A stretch of DNA of 64,000 bases, taken from assembly GCA_032139905.1 (NCBI GenBank), contig JAQJDB010000006.1, positions 434,001 to 498,000 of the forward strand. The letters are read 5' to 3'. The notes below the pieces were generated by a model. It ran no database searches. It saw only the letters and a program-made list of their open reading frames with translations, and was not told where the DNA came from. The stretch comes from Nitrospira sp. MA-1 (GTDB taxonomy: Bacteria; Nitrospirota; Nitrospiria; Nitrospirales; UBA8639). The position numbers and the translations under genes are program-made. Positions 48,699 to 57,680 of the stretch are shown piece after piece; position 1 is the stretch's first letter; every line of letters begins with the position of its first letter.

Positions 48699-51014
48699 AT
48701 GAAAGCAGAAGCAGAAAATCTGGAATTTGTCACGATTAACGGATTGTTATCCTATGGGGAGGCCATTGCCAGGCGTCCGCCGGTAGAGGGTGCGGAGCCT
48801 CATCCCCCTTTAACTACATTGGAAGATCGTCCGCAACGGACATTGGAGGTCATGGCCGCCATACGACTGTTTGTTCAGGAGGCTCAAAAAGGGTTTGCCA
48901 ATGCCGCAGCTTACAGAGAGGCAAGGCAGGCGTTGATCCGGCAAGCCTGCGGAGGAGATGAGTTGGTGTTTTTCGCTGCCTGGAATCAGCTTCTCGCTCA
49001 GAGCGAGCTTGCTCCCTTGTTTCGTGCCCCAATCGGGGCCACGAATAAACCTATACGTCGTCGACCCGTGGCGATCGTTCCGCGCGAGCATATGACGCCC
49101 AATCTGGCGGAAGGTCGAATCGTCCTGGATATTGGCGATGACCGCTTCTGGTTGATGCCAAGGGATTTAAGTGCCCGCACGCTGTTTTTCACCATGCGGC
49201 ACGGTGTCTCCCGGATGGATAGTAAGAAGTTTCGGGTGGGGCGCCGGTTGAGAAACGTTCTGGATGTCGAGCGGGGAATTCCAAAGGCCGATGCCATCGG
49301 AACCGCCCTTGTCCGGACCTTAGGCTTGGTGGGAAAACAACTGGACTTCCTTCAGTTGGATAACTACCTGGATTCGAAATCCTTTGTGCATATGGTGAGT
49401 CAGAGTCCCAATACCCGGCAGCTTTTTGAACGGGTCATCTCTATCCTGTCTCCCGAGACAGCCAAGGCCACTCAGCCCATCACGGAATGGGCCTTAGAAT
49501 CGCAAGACTTCGGATGGGCCACCGGTATTGAGAAAACAATTGAAATCGAAGAAGCCGCCAGGGCCTTTGGGGTCGATACGAAGACGGCGCAACGTCTGAT
49601 TAAACACCCGCTGTACAGTTATCCCGGAGGTCACTCTTTCTTTGAACTCTATGTAGAATTGGTTGACGGGTTCCATCAGTTGGGCCAAACTCACCAGGGA
49701 AAAGTGTTGTGTTTATATACGCACAGCTCAACCTTGCGTGCACTCTTAATTTTTCTGGATCCTCGTCCATTCAGTGAAGCCTTCTCAGAATTTGGCGCCT
49801 ATAAGGAAGGACAGGACAACGTCGTCCTTCTCACCTATGAACATGGGCAATTGTCAGGCTATTCCACCGCCGTGGGCCTTTCAGAGCGGGAACGTGCCGT
49901 CCGCGAGGCCTTGAAGACTGCGGAGCAAGGCCGTCGGGAAAAGGTCATCCTGAAACCCCGCCAGATTCGGCGGATCGTTGCCCTGGTCTCCGGTGGGGAT
50001 TTTGCGGGAGCCGGAGCGGCATTGAAGGAGCTCCGCGTGACGGGGAACCGGTTAGGCCTCGAAGTCTATTTCGTGCAACACGGATTTCTGGGGTTGGCCA
50101 ATAATTGGATTGAGTTGGTGACGGAACAGGACACACGTGGCATGAGCAATCATGCCAGCAGCCCGATTGGCAGCAGCCGGTTTGAAGATTTCAAGGATGA
50201 GGCGGCTCAACTGGCCGCCATTCAGCATCTCAAACCGTACCTGGAGGATGGGGCGCTCATTGTGATGGGCGGTGACGGCAGTATGCGTGGGGCCCGTGCC
50301 ATTTATGAACGGTTCGGCATTCAGGTTGTGGGGATACCCGGTTCGATCGACGATAATATCGCCGGAACCACCTCACTCGGGCTCCAATCGGCGGTCGCCC
50401 TGGCTAATCAATCCATCGAGTCGCTGAAGGCAACCAGTGCCGCCATGGGCAGTGTGTTTTTTGTGGAGGTCATGGGGGCAGGATCCGGGCACCTGGCGCT
50501 TATGTGTGCCTACCAGGCACGAGCGGAGGGACTGTTGGTCAATGAACATCCTGATCCGGATGCCTACATCGAGGAAGTCATTCTGGGAACATTGAAACAA
50601 ACGTTGGGGGTCCGGAATAAAAGCCATATTATAATAGTGGCCGAACGCACGCCTCACCAACATCATCCGGAGGGCGGGGTCCATGGCTTGGTGGATTATG
50701 TCGGCAGTCGGATTTCCCAGTGGACCCACCTGCAACCGCGATCCGGACATTACCCTCTTTCTGTGGCAACCAAGGCCACCATTCTTGGCCATACCCTACG
50801 AGGCGCCTTCCCGACCCCGGTGGACAAAACCATGGCGCAACTCTTTGCCTACGAAGCCATCCGGCGGTTGATCGAACAACCGGAACAGGTCATCGGCTGC
50901 ATGTTAGCCTACCGGGACCCCGGAACCATACAGCCGATTCCCTTGCATGCCGTGGCACCAAAACCCTTTGATTGGGAACTCTTCGCGCGCATGCACGGAA
51001 CCGAGTTGGTTTAG
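48699..51014 (+). CDS. Histidine-phosphatase-like domain fused to a phosphofructokinase domain
   Basis: One 771-codon frame. Residues 1 to about 160 are helical and unassigned. About 161-395 resemble a histidine phosphatase: Arg167-His168-Gly169 (FFTMRHGVSR), YPGGHSFFELY (residues 308-318, with His where the family has Glu) and the second histidine His342 (LYTHSSTLRAL). From about 424 a PfkA-type domain follows: IVALVSGGDFAGAG, GGDG at 524-527, GIPGSIDDN with Asp551 as the likely base, VMGAGSGHLAL and Glu649 (VAER). The usual Thr-Ile-Asp-Asn-Asp reads Ser-Ile-Asp-Asp-Asn, and several substrate residues differ. It probably phosphorylates fructose-6-phosphate or a related sugar phosphate, with ATP or diphosphate. 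The phosphatase-like half may oppose or sense that reaction. Confidence 0.82.
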   Translation: MKAEAENLEFVTINGLLSYGEAIARRPPVEGAEPHPPLTTLEDRPQRTLEVMAAIRLFVQEAQKGFANAAAYREARQALIRQACGGDELVFFAAWNQLLAQSELAPLFRAPIGATNKPIRRRPVAIVPREHMTPNLAEGRIVLDIGDDRFWLMPRDLSARTLFFTMRHGVSRMDSKKFRVGRRLRNVLDVERGIPKADAIGTALVRTLGLVGKQLDFLQLDNYLDSKSFVHMVSQSPNTRQLFERVISILSPETAKATQPITEWALESQDFGWATGIEKTIEIEEAARAFGVDTKTAQRLIKHPLYSYPGGHSFFELYVELVDGFHQLGQTHQGKVLCLYTHSSTLRALLIFLDPRPFSEAFSEFGAYKEGQDNVVLLTYEHGQLSGYSTAVGLSERERAVREALKTAEQGRREKVILKPRQIRRIVALVSGGDFAGAGAALKELRVTGNRLGLEVYFVQHGFLGLANNWIELVTEQDTRGMSNHASSPIGSSRFEDFKDEAAQLAAIQHLKPYLEDGALIVMGGDGSMRGARAIYERFGIQVVGIPGSIDDNIAGTTSLGLQSAVALANQSIESLKATSAAMGSVFFVEVMGAGSGHLALMCAYQARAEGLLVNEHPDPDAYIEEVILGTLKQTLGVRNKSHIIIVAERTPHQHHPEGGVHGLVDYVGSRISQWTHLQPRSGHYPLSVATKATILGHTLRGAFPTPVDKTMAQLFAYEAIRRLIEQPEQVIGCMLAYRDPGTIQPIPLHAVAPKPFDWELFARMHGTELV

Positions 51015-51040: not shown

Positions 51041-51276
51041 CGTGACAGGCTTGAATTTTTGAGTGTGTCACACACAGGAGGTCGGATGAGTGTGTTGACC
51101 ACACGGGATTGATTCCTCAACAAGGTCTTTGGTAGTTTCCGGTCCAGGCAAACTGGCCTTTTACCATTCCTATTGCTCCGCGCAAACACGGCCTTTGAAG
51201 CGACCATCAGCGCCTGAGTATTGATGTCACGACAGGAGGCCCGCCGTTCCCTACGCGATGGGCAGGAGATGTAAGT

Positions 51277-52356
51277 ATGGCGAGTACGACCGGTATGAGA
51301 GGGGGAGGCTTCTACGATGCGCACTCCTCCGGGCAGCGCGCGGCGATGGACGAGTTTCTTCCCTGGATGGTAGAGGCCATGGCCGACTTGCCCTTGCCGG
51401 CGCGCGGCTCGCCGATCGCGTTGCTCGACCTCGGTTCGTCAGAAGGCGCTAACGCGATTCATGCCGTGGGCGCGATCATCAAGGCATTGCGCGAACGCAC
51501 ATCGGCCGACATCTGGACCTTCTTCGATGATCTGCCCACGAACGACTTCAATCAACTCTTCGCCAACCTCTTTCCCGACCAGACCCCCTCAAGTCGCACA
51601 GCCGGTATCTATACCGCTGCCGTCGGCGGGTCGCTCTTCGAGCGTGTTGCCCCAGCCTCGAGCCTTGACATCGCGACGACATTCAATGCGGTGGGCTGGA
51701 TGTCCGCGTTGCCCACGACGCCCCTTCGGCAGTTCATCTCACCCTCGCCACCGGCGCAGCGGGCCTTTCGTGAGGGCGTCTCAGTGACCACGGAAGAAAG
51801 AGCGGCCTTCACTCAGCACGCCCGTGAAGACATCCTGAGTTTCTACCGGTCCCGTGCCGCCGAGCTGAAGCCCGGCGGGAAACTGCTCGTACAGGTCTTC
51901 GGACGCAACGACGAGCACAACACCGCAAATGGCATCATCGACGGGCTGAGCGACGCGATGCTGGACATGGTGGAGGACGGCCGCCTGACGCGCGACGTCT
52001 ACGAGAACTTCGTCTTCCCCGTTTTCTATCGTTCCCTTCCGGAGTTGTTGCCCCCGGCCGGAGAGAGCGGGGAGCCTCCGGCGTTCCGCGTCGACAAAGC
52101 GGAGGCCCGCGAATGCCGGGTTCCGTTTAACGAGGAGTTCGCCCGAAGTGGGGACTCGCGTGTCTGGGCCGGGAGCTACGCCGGATTCATCCGCGCATTC
52201 TCAGAACCTGTCTTCACGTCCGGCCTGCCGAACACCCCCGATCGGCCACAGCTGATCGACGAGCTGTATGCCCGGATGGCGAATCGATTCGAGGCCGATC
52301 CCGCCCGCTACGAGTTTCATTTCATTTCGCTGGGCGCATTGCTGACGCGGGTGTGA
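51277..52356 (+). CDS. SABATH-type SAM-dependent carboxyl methyltransferase
   Basis: A 359-residue protein matching the Methyltransf_7 (SABATH) family, known mainly from plants, where it methylates carboxyl or ring-nitrogen groups of small acids such as salicylate. Family features in order are: GGGFYDAHSSGQRAA near the N-terminus, the SAM loop LLDLGSSEGANA (49-60), FDDLPTNDFNQLF (83-95), and GGSLFERVAPASSLD followed by a WMS motif like the family's HWLS. GGAG eight bases before the ATG supports the start. The gene is clearly more GC-rich than the conserved genes to its left, suggesting transfer. The substrate is unknown. Confidence 0.85.
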   Translation: MASTTGMRGGGFYDAHSSGQRAAMDEFLPWMVEAMADLPLPARGSPIALLDLGSSEGANAIHAVGAIIKALRERTSADIWTFFDDLPTNDFNQLFANLFPDQTPSSRTAGIYTAAVGGSLFERVAPASSLDIATTFNAVGWMSALPTTPLRQFISPSPPAQRAFREGVSVTTEERAAFTQHAREDILSFYRSRAAELKPGGKLLVQVFGRNDEHNTANGIIDGLSDAMLDMVEDGRLTRDVYENFVFPVFYRSLPELLPPAGESGEPPAFRVDKAEARECRVPFNEEFARSGDSRVWAGSYAGFIRAFSEPVFTSGLPNTPDRPQLIDELYARMANRFEADPARYEFHFISLGALLTRV

Positions 52357-52546
52357 ATGGGGTTGCCTGCCAACCTGTGCCCAATGCGGTTTCATCGAGT
52401 CCGTATCGTCACACAACTCATCCAGCCTCTCGGTCATTCCCTGAAAAGTCCCATTCGTTTTTTGATGGAAGTCGTGGGTAGAGAATACAGGTTTTAGTCA
52501 CGTGAAATAACATAGACACGGCCATCGCGTTATGAAAGGGTGCAAT

Positions 52547-53452
52547 ATGAAGGTTGATAGTTGGTCTGGAACCATCATTTCCATTCCTTTCCAAAATCAC
52601 CAAATTGATGGGTTGTTTTATCATCTTGTCACAGACGATGAGCATGTCCGGAACAAGCCTGTCATATTGAGGCTCCATGGACTCCTAGGGAATCTCCTGG
52701 ATGAAACCGAGCATGATCTTCCTTACATTCTGGCGAAGCATGGGTATTCTTCCATGACCATCAATACGATCATGGCCAATCTGGGCTTATTTTTTGGATT
52801 TGGTATTTTCGACGAGGCGATGCCTCAAATCCATGCGGCTTGTTCTTATCTTCGACAGATGGGCTTTCAGAAAATTATTCTTGCAGGACATGGATTGGGA
52901 GGAGCCATGGCGATTCGCTATGGCGCGTTGCAACAGCAACAATTCCCATCTCCTGACATTCAAGGAATTATTGCCATTGCCACAGCATATTCTTTGCCCG
53001 ACACGATCCGGAAACGATGGACACGATTTGGCAGTCAACCTTCCTACCAGGAAGTCTATGAAAAGGCCAAAACACTGTATCATTCAAAGCCCGGGCACGA
53101 TCTGCCGGATGATGAAACCCTTGTCGTCAAACGGGCGCATGGTCCAACCGTCCGACCAGAGCATTCAGAAATCTATACGTTGAAAACCTGGTGGACCTTA
53201 GCAGGACCTGAAGCAGATGGTCCCAAAGCCTACCAACATATAGGGGGCATCAAGGTGCCGGTCCTGTTAGTTCACGGAAAATATGATGAGATGATCGACC
53301 CACAGGAGTGTGGCGCACTGGGAGATGTGGCCAAAACAGCAGGCAATCCGGATGTGACCATGCTCCACCTAGAAGCCGGGCACGATCTTTCTGGAAAGCA
53401 CGAGGAACTCGGACAGGAGGTGGTGAAATGGATTCAGGAGCGATTTGAATAA
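52547..53452 (+). CDS. Alpha/beta hydrolase-fold protein lacking the nucleophile serine
   Basis: A 301-residue alpha/beta-hydrolase. The oxyanion motif HGLLGN is at residues 44-49. The nucleophile elbow reads GHGLGG (from residue 114): the serine expected at position 116 is glycine (codon GGA, 52892-52894). The acid (HGKYDEMID) and histidine (EAGHDLSGK) positions are kept. AAGGG six bases before ATG 52547 supports this start over ATG 52532. It is followed at once by a paralogue with an intact serine, so it may be a binding or regulatory partner rather than an enzyme. Confidence 0.8.
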   Translation: MKVDSWSGTIISIPFQNHQIDGLFYHLVTDDEHVRNKPVILRLHGLLGNLLDETEHDLPYILAKHGYSSMTINTIMANLGLFFGFGIFDEAMPQIHAACSYLRQMGFQKIILAGHGLGGAMAIRYGALQQQQFPSPDIQGIIAIATAYSLPDTIRKRWTRFGSQPSYQEVYEKAKTLYHSKPGHDLPDDETLVVKRAHGPTVRPEHSEIYTLKTWWTLAGPEADGPKAYQHIGGIKVPVLLVHGKYDEMIDPQECGALGDVAKTAGNPDVTMLHLEAGHDLSGKHEELGQEVVKWIQERFE

Positions 53453-53501
53453 TGATGGTCTTTTACGGGTCTGTCCAAAAATCCAGCCACCAAAGATTCC
53501 G

Positions 53502-54395
53502 ATGATCCACCCCCACCAACAATTGTTCCGGCTTCGAACACGCGATGGGTTGATGATGAGTGGGCATCTGATCATCAAAGAAAATGATCTTGATACGAAC
53601 ATCCTCAAAACACCAATTGTCATTGAAGTGCATGGTCTGTTAGGGAACTTCTTGGCACGAGGGACTCCTCGCCTTCTTTCTCAGGCTCTCCGGGAGTGGG
53701 ATATTTCGTCGTTTTCCATTAACACCAGACTGGCATTCGCCGGGCAAATAAACGGAAGAGGAATTTTCGATGAGACGATCCATGATATAGACGCGGCCGT
53801 GCACTTTCTGGCTCAAGAAGGATTTTCTAATATTTTCATCTTAGGCTATAGCCTCGGTGCCAGTATGGTCTTGCACTGGGCAGGGCATCGCCACGTTCCC
53901 AATGTCAAAGGCCTCATTCTTGAAGGGACGCACTATGCCATCCCCGATACACAGAGAAAGCGATTGGCCAAATGGGAAAGTACTCCGAGCTATGAGGAAT
54001 TATATGCCCAGGCCAAGTCTATTCTAGGCGAGAATCCCTCTCAGAGTGATCATGATGAAATGGTGGTGATCTACCAAGCCCGAGGACCAAGCCGGAGCCC
54101 ATTGCATGATGAAATTTTTACCTATAAAACATGGTGGCACATGATGGGACCGGAGGCGTATTCTGCCATGGCCTACAAACAGATAAGCCGTGTCACATTG
54201 CCCATGCTGCTGATGCGGGGGGAAAACGATCCGCTCATCGAGGCGTGGGAAGCCGAAGCCTTACAACGCATTGCACAAGAGGCAGGGAATACCTTCGTGT
54301 CTATCAAGGACATTCCTCGCGCGGGTCATGATTGCATGGACAACCCGGAGGCGATGCTCCAAGAAATCCTTACCCTACTCAGACCCTCCCCTTGA
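53502..54395 (+). CDS. Alpha/beta hydrolase, intact catalytic triad
   Basis: A 297-residue paralogue of the preceding gene. HGLLGN again falls at residue 44 when the ATG at 53502 is used, which supports that start over a TTG at 53445 inside the previous gene. The nucleophile elbow is GYSLGAS with Ser117; the acid lies in RGENDPLIE and the histidine in PRAGHDCMD. Both paralogues share an IFDE motif and an (I)YT/FTYKTWW segment. Substrate unknown; esterase or lipase-like activity is expected from the fold. Confidence 0.82.
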   Translation: MIHPHQQLFRLRTRDGLMMSGHLIIKENDLDTNILKTPIVIEVHGLLGNFLARGTPRLLSQALREWDISSFSINTRLAFAGQINGRGIFDETIHDIDAAVHFLAQEGFSNIFILGYSLGASMVLHWAGHRHVPNVKGLILEGTHYAIPDTQRKRLAKWESTPSYEELYAQAKSILGENPSQSDHDEMVVIYQARGPSRSPLHDEIFTYKTWWHMMGPEAYSAMAYKQISRVTLPMLLMRGENDPLIEAWEAEALQRIAQEAGNTFVSIKDIPRAGHDCMDNPEAMLQEILTLLRPSP

Positions 54396-57088: not shown

Positions 57089-57367
57089 ATGATTGTCAGT
57101 ATTAAGCATCGGGGTCTGAAACGGTGGTTTTATAAGGAAGACCCATCGGGCTTAACCCCGCATCTGGTGCCGATCATTGACGATATCCTGGCGCGGTTGA
57201 ATGTGGCCGAGGGTGTGAAGGCCATGAGCCTTCCGGGATGGAACCTGCATGCGTTAAAAGGGGAGTTAAAAGGGTTTTGGAGTATTAAGGTCACTGGAAA
57301 CTGGCGCATTATTTTTCGTTTTGAAGGCGGGGACGTCTTTGATGTGAATTTGGTTGATTACCACTAG
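57089..57367 (+). CDS. higB: HigB-type toxin (RelE/ParE superfamily)
   Basis: A 92-residue protein of the HigB branch of RelE-like ribosome-dependent mRNA interferases: HRGLKRWFYKED at the start, LNVAEGVKAMSLPGWNLHAL, LKGELKGFWSIKV and the C-terminal WRIIFRFEGGDVFDVNLVDYH. Toxin-first order, with the antitoxin 13 bases downstream, is the hallmark of higBA. It sits in the accessory part of the window. Confidence 0.92.
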   Translation: MIVSIKHRGLKRWFYKEDPSGLTPHLVPIIDDILARLNVAEGVKAMSLPGWNLHALKGELKGFWSIKVTGNWRIIFRFEGGDVFDVNLVDYH

Positions 57368-57380
57368 AAAGGAGTATGTT

Positions 57381-57680
57381 ATGGGACTGCATCATCCACC
57401 GCATCCGGGCCGCTCGATCAGGAGGGACTGCCTTGAAGCCCTCGGATTGACGGTTACGGATGGAGCCAAAATATTGGGGATTACCCGGCATATGTTGTCG
57501 AGGATTATCAATGGGCAGGCCGGCGTTTCACCGGAAATGGCCGTGCGGTTGGAAAAGGCTTTTGGCGGAACAGCGCAAAGCTGGTTAGCACTTCAGCAAG
57601 CGTATGAACTCGCACAGGTAGAACGGGGGAAAATCAAAGTTCGTTCGGTAGCTTCGGTCCGGGAAGAAGCAAGGGTGTAG
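57381..57680 (+). CDS. higA: HigA antitoxin (XRE-family DNA-binding protein)
   Basis: A 99-residue protein starting HHPPHPGRSIRRDCLEALGL, the HigA signature, with a helix-turn-helix (VTDGAKILGITRHMLSRIING) and FGGTAQSWLALQQAYEL. It neutralises HigB and represses the operon. AAAGGAG six bases before ATG 57381 fixes the start over a TTG at 57354. Confidence 0.93.
   Translation: MGLHHPPHPGRSIRRDCLEALGLTVTDGAKILGITRHMLSRIINGQAGVSPEMAVRLEKAFGGTAQSWLALQQAYELAQVERGKIKVRSVASVREEARV

Follow-up and report, generated by a model that had tools for sequence, protein, structure and literature searches.

An ORF in the genome of Nitrospira sp. MA-1 (51277-52356, plus strand) encodes a bacterial cousin of the plant acid-methylating SABATH enzymes. 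Positions refer to the window, that is, the whole 64,000-nucleotide stretch of DNA that was analysed. Most SABATH enzymes known so far come from plants. The order Nitrospirales comprises oxidisers of nitrite and ammonia; since the host belongs to this order, it is presumably a nitrifier. The analysis supported the family, the fold (in a predicted model), the conservation of the SAM-site and Gln/Trp residues, purifying selection and horizontal spread. On this basis, it is probable that the protein forms methyl esters, in a SAM-dependent manner, on a small and probably hydrophobic carboxylic acid. The likely practical payoff is a candidate small-acid methyltransferase from a Nitrospirales bacterium.

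The gene and its predicted fold

The gene and the sequence elements that identify it are as follows.

51277..52356, plus strand: gene for a SABATH-type (PF03492) SAM-dependent methyltransferase of 359 aa, assigned by sequence, profile and fold
51264..51268, plus strand: AGGAG, read directly from the sequence; it lies 8 bases upstream of the ATG and is likely the ribosome-binding site
51427..51456, plus strand: DLGSSEGANA (residues 51-60), the SAM-binding motif; Asp51 corresponds to Asp57 of the plant SABATH enzyme SAMT from Clarkia
51529..51561, plus strand: DLPTNDFNQLF (residues 85-95); Asp85/Leu86 correspond to Asp98/Leu99 of SAMT

The ORF starts with ATG. Every motif quoted in the original prediction is present in it, including SSGQ (residues 17-20), GGSLFERVAPASSLD (117-131) and WMS (141-143) besides the two listed above. 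In a Pfam profile search, the protein matched PF03492 with an E-value of 8e-39 and 134.1 bits (the curated cut-off is 29.8 bits), and the alignment is nearly full-length (protein residues 45-357, profile positions 14-334 of 335). It is the sole PF03492 match in its own genome, while the NCBIfam profile search of the protein gave nothing at E 0.001. The gene is under purifying selection, with a dN/dS of about 0.1 (0.087-0.135 for the 10 pairs among five orthologues). The PF03492 score and the dN/dS values show that the ORF is a real coding gene, far beyond chance.

In a PDB sequence search, the closest solved relatives were two chains of the mycobacterial fatty-acid O-methyltransferase FAMT (E 3e-26 and 4e-26), followed by nine plant SABATH chains with E 2e-9 or better. 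Two extra chains at E 0.8 are noise, and the confident matches are FAMT and plant SABATH enzymes only. The A2 profile also found FAMT first and then the same nine plant chains. An AlphaFold2 model of the protein was built from 25 sequences (alignment A4), with a pLDDT of 86.4 and a pTM of 0.87; pLDDT is below 50 at residues 1-6, 87-92 (within the DLPTNDF motif) and 100-107. The predicted model has a Rossmann-like SAM core and the SABATH helical cap. Its top fold match is the octanoate-bound form of FAMT (Z 41.9, rmsd 2.2 A over 343 residues). SABATH enzymes occupy the first 13 places among the PDB entries (Z 32.2-41.9), and the entry in 14th place has a Z of 19.2. SABATH chains were also on top of the Foldseek ranking of the model. 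The profile search, the fold and the key residues all support the predicted SABATH membership. On the other hand, calling the enzyme "plant-like" was misleading, as its nearest solved relative is the bacterial FAMT both by sequence (E 3e-26 vs 8e-23 for the best plant chain) and by predicted fold (Z 41.9 vs 38.9 for the best non-FAMT match, a tea N9-methyltransferase). SABATH enzymes from bacteria are not new: the structures of FAMT, for example, were released in 2015 (PDB).

The same fold is shared with Clarkia SAMT (1m6e), IAMT (3b5i) and LAMT (6c8r), with Z of 37.6, 32.2 and 37.7 for the predicted model, while the sequence identity is 24-26%. In an alignment with SAMT and IAMT, the SAM motifs and the Gln25/Trp151 equivalents are also shared. 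The purine-alkaloid N-methyltransferases CkTcS (6lyh), XMT (2eg5) and DXMT (2efj) resemble the model with Z of 38.9, 33.7 and 34.3, while their identity is 21-23% and nothing in the analysis points to a purine substrate.

The acceptor site and candidate reactions

Three elements of the acceptor side were compared in A4, which consists of 15 rows of the clade to which the window protein belongs and 10 other bacterial rows.

51334..51336, plus strand: codon of Gln20, corresponding to the substrate-binding Gln25 of Clarkia SAMT; Gln in 14/14 clade rows covering the position
51676..51699, plus strand: TTFNAVGW (residues 134-141); Thr134 and Asn137 are clade-specific, Gly140 replaces His/Met/Gln, and Trp141 corresponds to Trp151 of SAMT
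51769..51786, plus strand: REGVSV (residues 165-170), the core of an insert present in 15/15 clade rows and in 0/10 other bacterial A4 rows

The SAM site of SAMT was represented by Ser22, Asp57, Asp98, Leu99, Ser129 and Phe130. All except the last are conserved in the alignment, as Ser17, Asp51, Asp85, Leu86 and Ser119; the position of Phe130 is occupied by Leu120 in the window protein and by Leu, Ala or Gly across its clade. The clamp positions of the window protein are Arg8 (SAMT Lys10), Gln20 (Gln25) and Trp141 (Trp151), the last preceded by Gly140. At position 140, 14 of the 15 clade rows have Gly and the remaining one has Ala; the four solved enzymes aligned have Met, His or Gln there. 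Trp141 is kept in six rows (Nitrospirota and Myxococcota) and replaced by Phe in the other nine. All 15 clade rows have Asn at position 137, where the other 10 bacterial rows carry Ile, Ser, Tyr, Trp or Thr; a protein of the Novosphingobium plasmid pSA2, outside A4, also has Asn there. In comparison with Clarkia SAMT, the window protein has Tyr147 changed to Asn137, Met150 to Gly140 and Phe130 to Leu120. Gly167, Val168 and Val170 of the insert are invariant in the 15 clade rows. Additional residues are found at this place of the alignment in plant enzymes as well, which was not taken as proof of kinship.

Some plant SABATH enzymes methylate nitrogen. Gly or Ala at position 140, Phe at 141 and the altered Phe130 site together mean that the acceptor geometry differs and that a carboxylate need not be the acceptor; from the aligned residues, the acceptor pocket of the clade has likely changed. 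A hydrophobic pocket may be formed by Phe136, Phe208, Ile220, Ile221, Phe250, Ile305, Phe308 and Phe349, which align with pocket positions of SAMT. This pocket would be shorter than that of FAMT, because the bulky Ile305 and Phe308 occupy the places of FAMT Ala312 and Ala315. As for the clamp itself, two sources give Lys10/Gln25/Trp151 as acceptor-site residues of SAMT (PMC13376665) and Gln38/His162/Trp163 as those of LAMT, the LAMT mutants H162A and W163F being reported there to have negligible activity (PMC10420828). LAMT His162 and Trp163 correspond to clade positions 140 and 141. The clade offers a natural Trp-to-Phe series at the clamp, a change reported to inactivate a plant enzyme (PMC10420828).

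The proposed reaction is as follows. As a SABATH-fold enzyme that acts alone, probably in the cytosol, the protein would bind SAM through Ser17, Asp51, Asp85/Leu86 and Ser119. The carboxylate of the acid, presumably the acceptor, would be held between Gln20 and Trp141 beneath the helical cap. One of its oxygens would receive the methyl group in a direct transfer, and the products would be SAH and a neutral methyl ester. Capping or detoxification of an acid would fit as the physiological use, and so would the production of a diffusible ester.

It is also possible, and is put forward tentatively, that the clade forms a separate subfamily of bacterial SABATH enzymes which has spread horizontally and has had its acceptor site rebuilt (Asn137, Gly/Ala140, Trp/Phe141 and the REGVSV-type insert), and that it makes its own kind of methylated small molecule in Nitrospirales, planctomycetes and myxobacteria, with a binding mode unlike those of the solved SABATH enzymes aligned. 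No title on this clade was found among the literature matches listed, which is not a claim that the clade is unpublished.

It is unlikely that the enzyme is a SABATH-fold methyltransferase with a non-carboxylate acceptor, a ring nitrogen or a hydroxyl, comparable to the plant caffeine-type N-methyltransferases. The loss of His/Met/Gln before Trp141 in all 15 clade rows and the Trp-to-Phe change in nine of them would agree with such an acceptor, and so would the rank of the tea enzyme as the best structural match after FAMT. However, Gln20 is retained in every one of the 14 clade rows covering the position, and the fold cannot discriminate N- from carboxyl-methylation, because the Z-scores of the two kinds are nearly equal (38.9 vs 37.7).

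Methyl ester formation on a fatty acid, as by mycobacterial FAMT, has a still lower probability. FAMT (5f2k/5f2n/5f2o) is the top solved match by both sequence and fold: it is a bacterial protein of the PF03492 fold with 24-26% identity, aligned over the 343 residues mentioned above, and the window protein keeps its acceptor-site Gln and Trp. However, in the trees described below, FAMT groups with three actinobacterial rows (100/100) and the window protein lies outside this clade. In addition, FAMT Gln154, the near-acceptor Gln, is replaced by Gly140, Ala312 by Ile305 and Ala315 by Phe308, and the REGVSV-type insert is extra in the window clade.

Genomic setting and history of the gene

The following genes flank the SABATH gene.

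48699..51014, plus strand: phosphofructokinase-domain protein (771 aa) that is common in the genus and bounds the accessory gene on the left
52532..53452, plus strand: alpha/beta hydrolase 1; GHGLG replaces GxSxG, with no nucleophile Ser
53445..54395, plus strand: alpha/beta hydrolase 2, a paralogue of hydrolase 1 with an intact GYSLG motif

Within the genus, the SABATH gene was found in four of the 19 other genomes (NPIRA06, NPIRA03, G018 and G010), one copy being in two pieces, while the same search found it in none of 39 further genomes from the family and the order. The kinase gene was matched in 14 of 20 genus genomes (own included), 13 of them at E 0 and the 14th with a weak paralogue only. 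Since the kinase gene is common and the SABATH gene is patchy, it was fair to place the edge of an accessory block here. In the 771-aa protein, the phosphofructokinase domain (PF00365) is C-terminal. Its N-terminal half matched no Pfam model at E 0.001; an RHG stretch in this half is reminiscent of histidine phosphatases.

The gene is GC-rich, as had been noted: 63.1% (GC3 77%) vs 49.6% in the rest of the window. Four Nitrospirales copies have a gene GC of 59.5-64.3% with flanks of 47-54%, while in two Myxococcota copies the gene is close to its flank (gene/flank GC 0.628/0.621 and 0.632/0.649). A Myxococcales copy is 86% identical to the window protein. The dS between these two genes is 0.60, vs 0.64 between the window and G018; against the other three Nitrospirales copies, the Myxococcales copy gives 0.53-0.81, and the four Nitrospirales copies give 0.25-0.67 among themselves. 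The SABATH gene is therefore hardly further from the myxobacterial copy than from that of a congener, which is a signature of transfer. The kinase gene has a dS of 0.61 (window-G018) and 0.60 (window-NPIRA03), and the SABATH gene has 0.64 and 0.67 for the same pairs; thus, its descent in the genus appears to have run parallel to that of the kinase gene. Taken from these sequence comparisons, the gene has probably been exchanged with myxobacteria in a transfer between phyla, whose direction, judged by the GC contents, would be from a high-GC donor. Upstream of the ATG, the BLAST alignment extends for 97 bases with the Myxococcales copy vs 21-28 bases with G018, NPIRA03 and G010.

That the myxobacterial copy stems from metagenome contamination was considered and judged unlikely. 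The second gene after this copy has a counterpart of 85% identity in another genome of that family and counterparts of 58-65% in six further genomes (20 searched), and the stretch of the Myxococcales contig without the gene has a GC of 62%. The Myxococcales SABATH gene is split over two contigs whose ends overlap exactly by 121 bases. In the stretch of the nearest relative (L109, 1.5 kb flanks), neither the SABATH gene nor the adjoining gene was found.

The locus has been rearranged in the genus. In G018, an eroded SABATH 3′ end directly follows the kinase gene and is followed by the first hydrolase, while an open SABATH frame lies about 41 kb from the kinase site; at this second SABATH site, G018, NPIRA03 and G010 have flanking genes in common. 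In G010, the SABATH gene is split by an IS110-family element. In NPIRA06 (L008:2833-8001), the 3′ end of the kinase gene is present a second time (269 columns, 93%) ahead of the SABATH gene, and this duplicate is itself preceded by a piece of the post-hydrolase region. This layout can be read as a tandem duplication followed by loss and by the insertion of three genes, for a phosphodiesterase, a MocA-type oxidoreductase and a glycosyltransferase. A literature search on the NPIRA06 MAG found no paper. The broken copy in G010, the scar in G018 and the patchy presence in the genus might be taken to indicate a decaying gene without function; this is very improbable for the window copy, whose frame is intact and whose dN/dS is near 0.1.

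It had been suggested that the downstream hydrolases could reverse the esters, for which the context is unsupportive. Hydrolase 1 has GHGLG in all three genomes read (window, NPIRA06 and G018). When both hydrolases were compared by tblastn with 42 loci around SABATH matches, they were found only in the window and NPIRA06. Hydrolase 1 of G018, at the kinase site and outside the 42 loci, has only the SABATH scar beside it. Thus, the link of the SABATH gene to these hydrolases is weak. Beside its Ser-bearing paralogue, hydrolase 1 may be a partner protein, possibly a non-catalytic one.

An all-against-all comparison of neighbouring genes gave no substrate hint from families common to distant loci. 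It was run on a first set of loci and again on a larger one, for which the top 40 groups were listed, both times on predicted genes with a crude ORF choice that dropped some. Neighbour families recurred in three sets of loci, as expected of close relatives: the planctomycete loci, the seven small cyanobacterial genomes, and a trio from the FAMT-containing clade (L067, L068 and L070). Besides the two cases given below, distant loci shared a few of the groups listed, which by eye were unrecognised or resembled common enzyme families. Operon logic was thus dropped as a route to the substrate, as no recurrent neighbour across distant loci provides one.

A methionine sulfoxide reductase B gene (SelR, PF01641) adjoins the SABATH gene in 9/9 planctomycete loci, of which L017 and L057 look like one; SelR was tested at L012:4262-4666, L055:6490-6897, L058:7747-8157 and L053:6891-7388. 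An MsrB gene also lies, in convergent orientation, beside a distant SABATH copy of another Nitrospirales family (G185), where coincidence is possible. The window and L021 have a toxin-antitoxin pair in common, far from the SABATH gene. By Pfam, the window has a pair of HigB-like toxin and HTH antitoxin genes at 57089-57680.

The bacterial clade and the plant enzymes

Two trees were calculated, one of 31 rows and one of 30 rows without the long branch L075, neither with an outgroup. The window protein belongs to a 13-row, all-bacterial clade (100/100 in the first tree, 100/99 in the second) with members from Nitrospirales, Myxococcota, Planctomycetota, one Spartobacteria MAG and the cyanobacterium SU2. 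The clade thus spans five phyla, namely Nitrospirota, Myxococcota, Planctomycetota, Verrucomicrobiota and Cyanobacteriota, and is material for the question of the origin of the family. The three plant rows form a separate clade (100/100), in which the window protein is not nested. On a possible sister relation of the two clades, the trees differ: plants, the clade and L018 were joined at 90/75, which is unsupported, in the 31-row tree, and not joined after the removal of L075, while forcing the clade and the plants together was not rejected (AU p 0.445, 30 rows). Uptake of a plant gene by the bacterium can practically be dismissed, since the profile similarity to plant enzymes is set against two separate clades, three plant sequences representing the plants.

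The counts in the phylum samples concern all of PF03492 rather than the clade, with the own or centre genome included: 3/295 genomes in Nitrospirota, 6/294 in Planctomycetota, 8/244 in Cyanobacteriota, 1/187 in Myxococcota (the centre genome only), 8/246 in Actinomycetota (two of them weak partial matches) and 4/349 in Pseudomonadota. The seven non-centre cyanobacterial genomes scored 77-89 bits vs 133 for the centre. In the order of OFTM293, 2/14 genomes had a match, one of which is partial. A scan of genome contigs found 14 loci; one of them covers 60 residues at a contig end and belongs to the same Myxococcales gene, and another covers 64 residues in Halochromatium.

Carriage by plasmids or phages was also considered. 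The search of a phage collection for relatives gave no match, a plasmid collection gave three distant matches (23-32% identity), all outside the clade, and the 10 viral-contig stretches that matched in a scan encode no relative; carriage was therefore rejected.

Seven cyanobacterial genomes of 2.3-2.9 Mb (L060-L066) carry a divergent type of SABATH gene whose neighbourhood is conserved; the two of them that were aligned, L060 and L064, are without Gln20 and Ser17. The second gene downstream in these seven genomes resembles, by eye, an FAD oxidoreductase. The SABATH copy on a plasmid of Rhizobium CB3171 is likewise followed by an annotated FAD-binding oxidoreductase.
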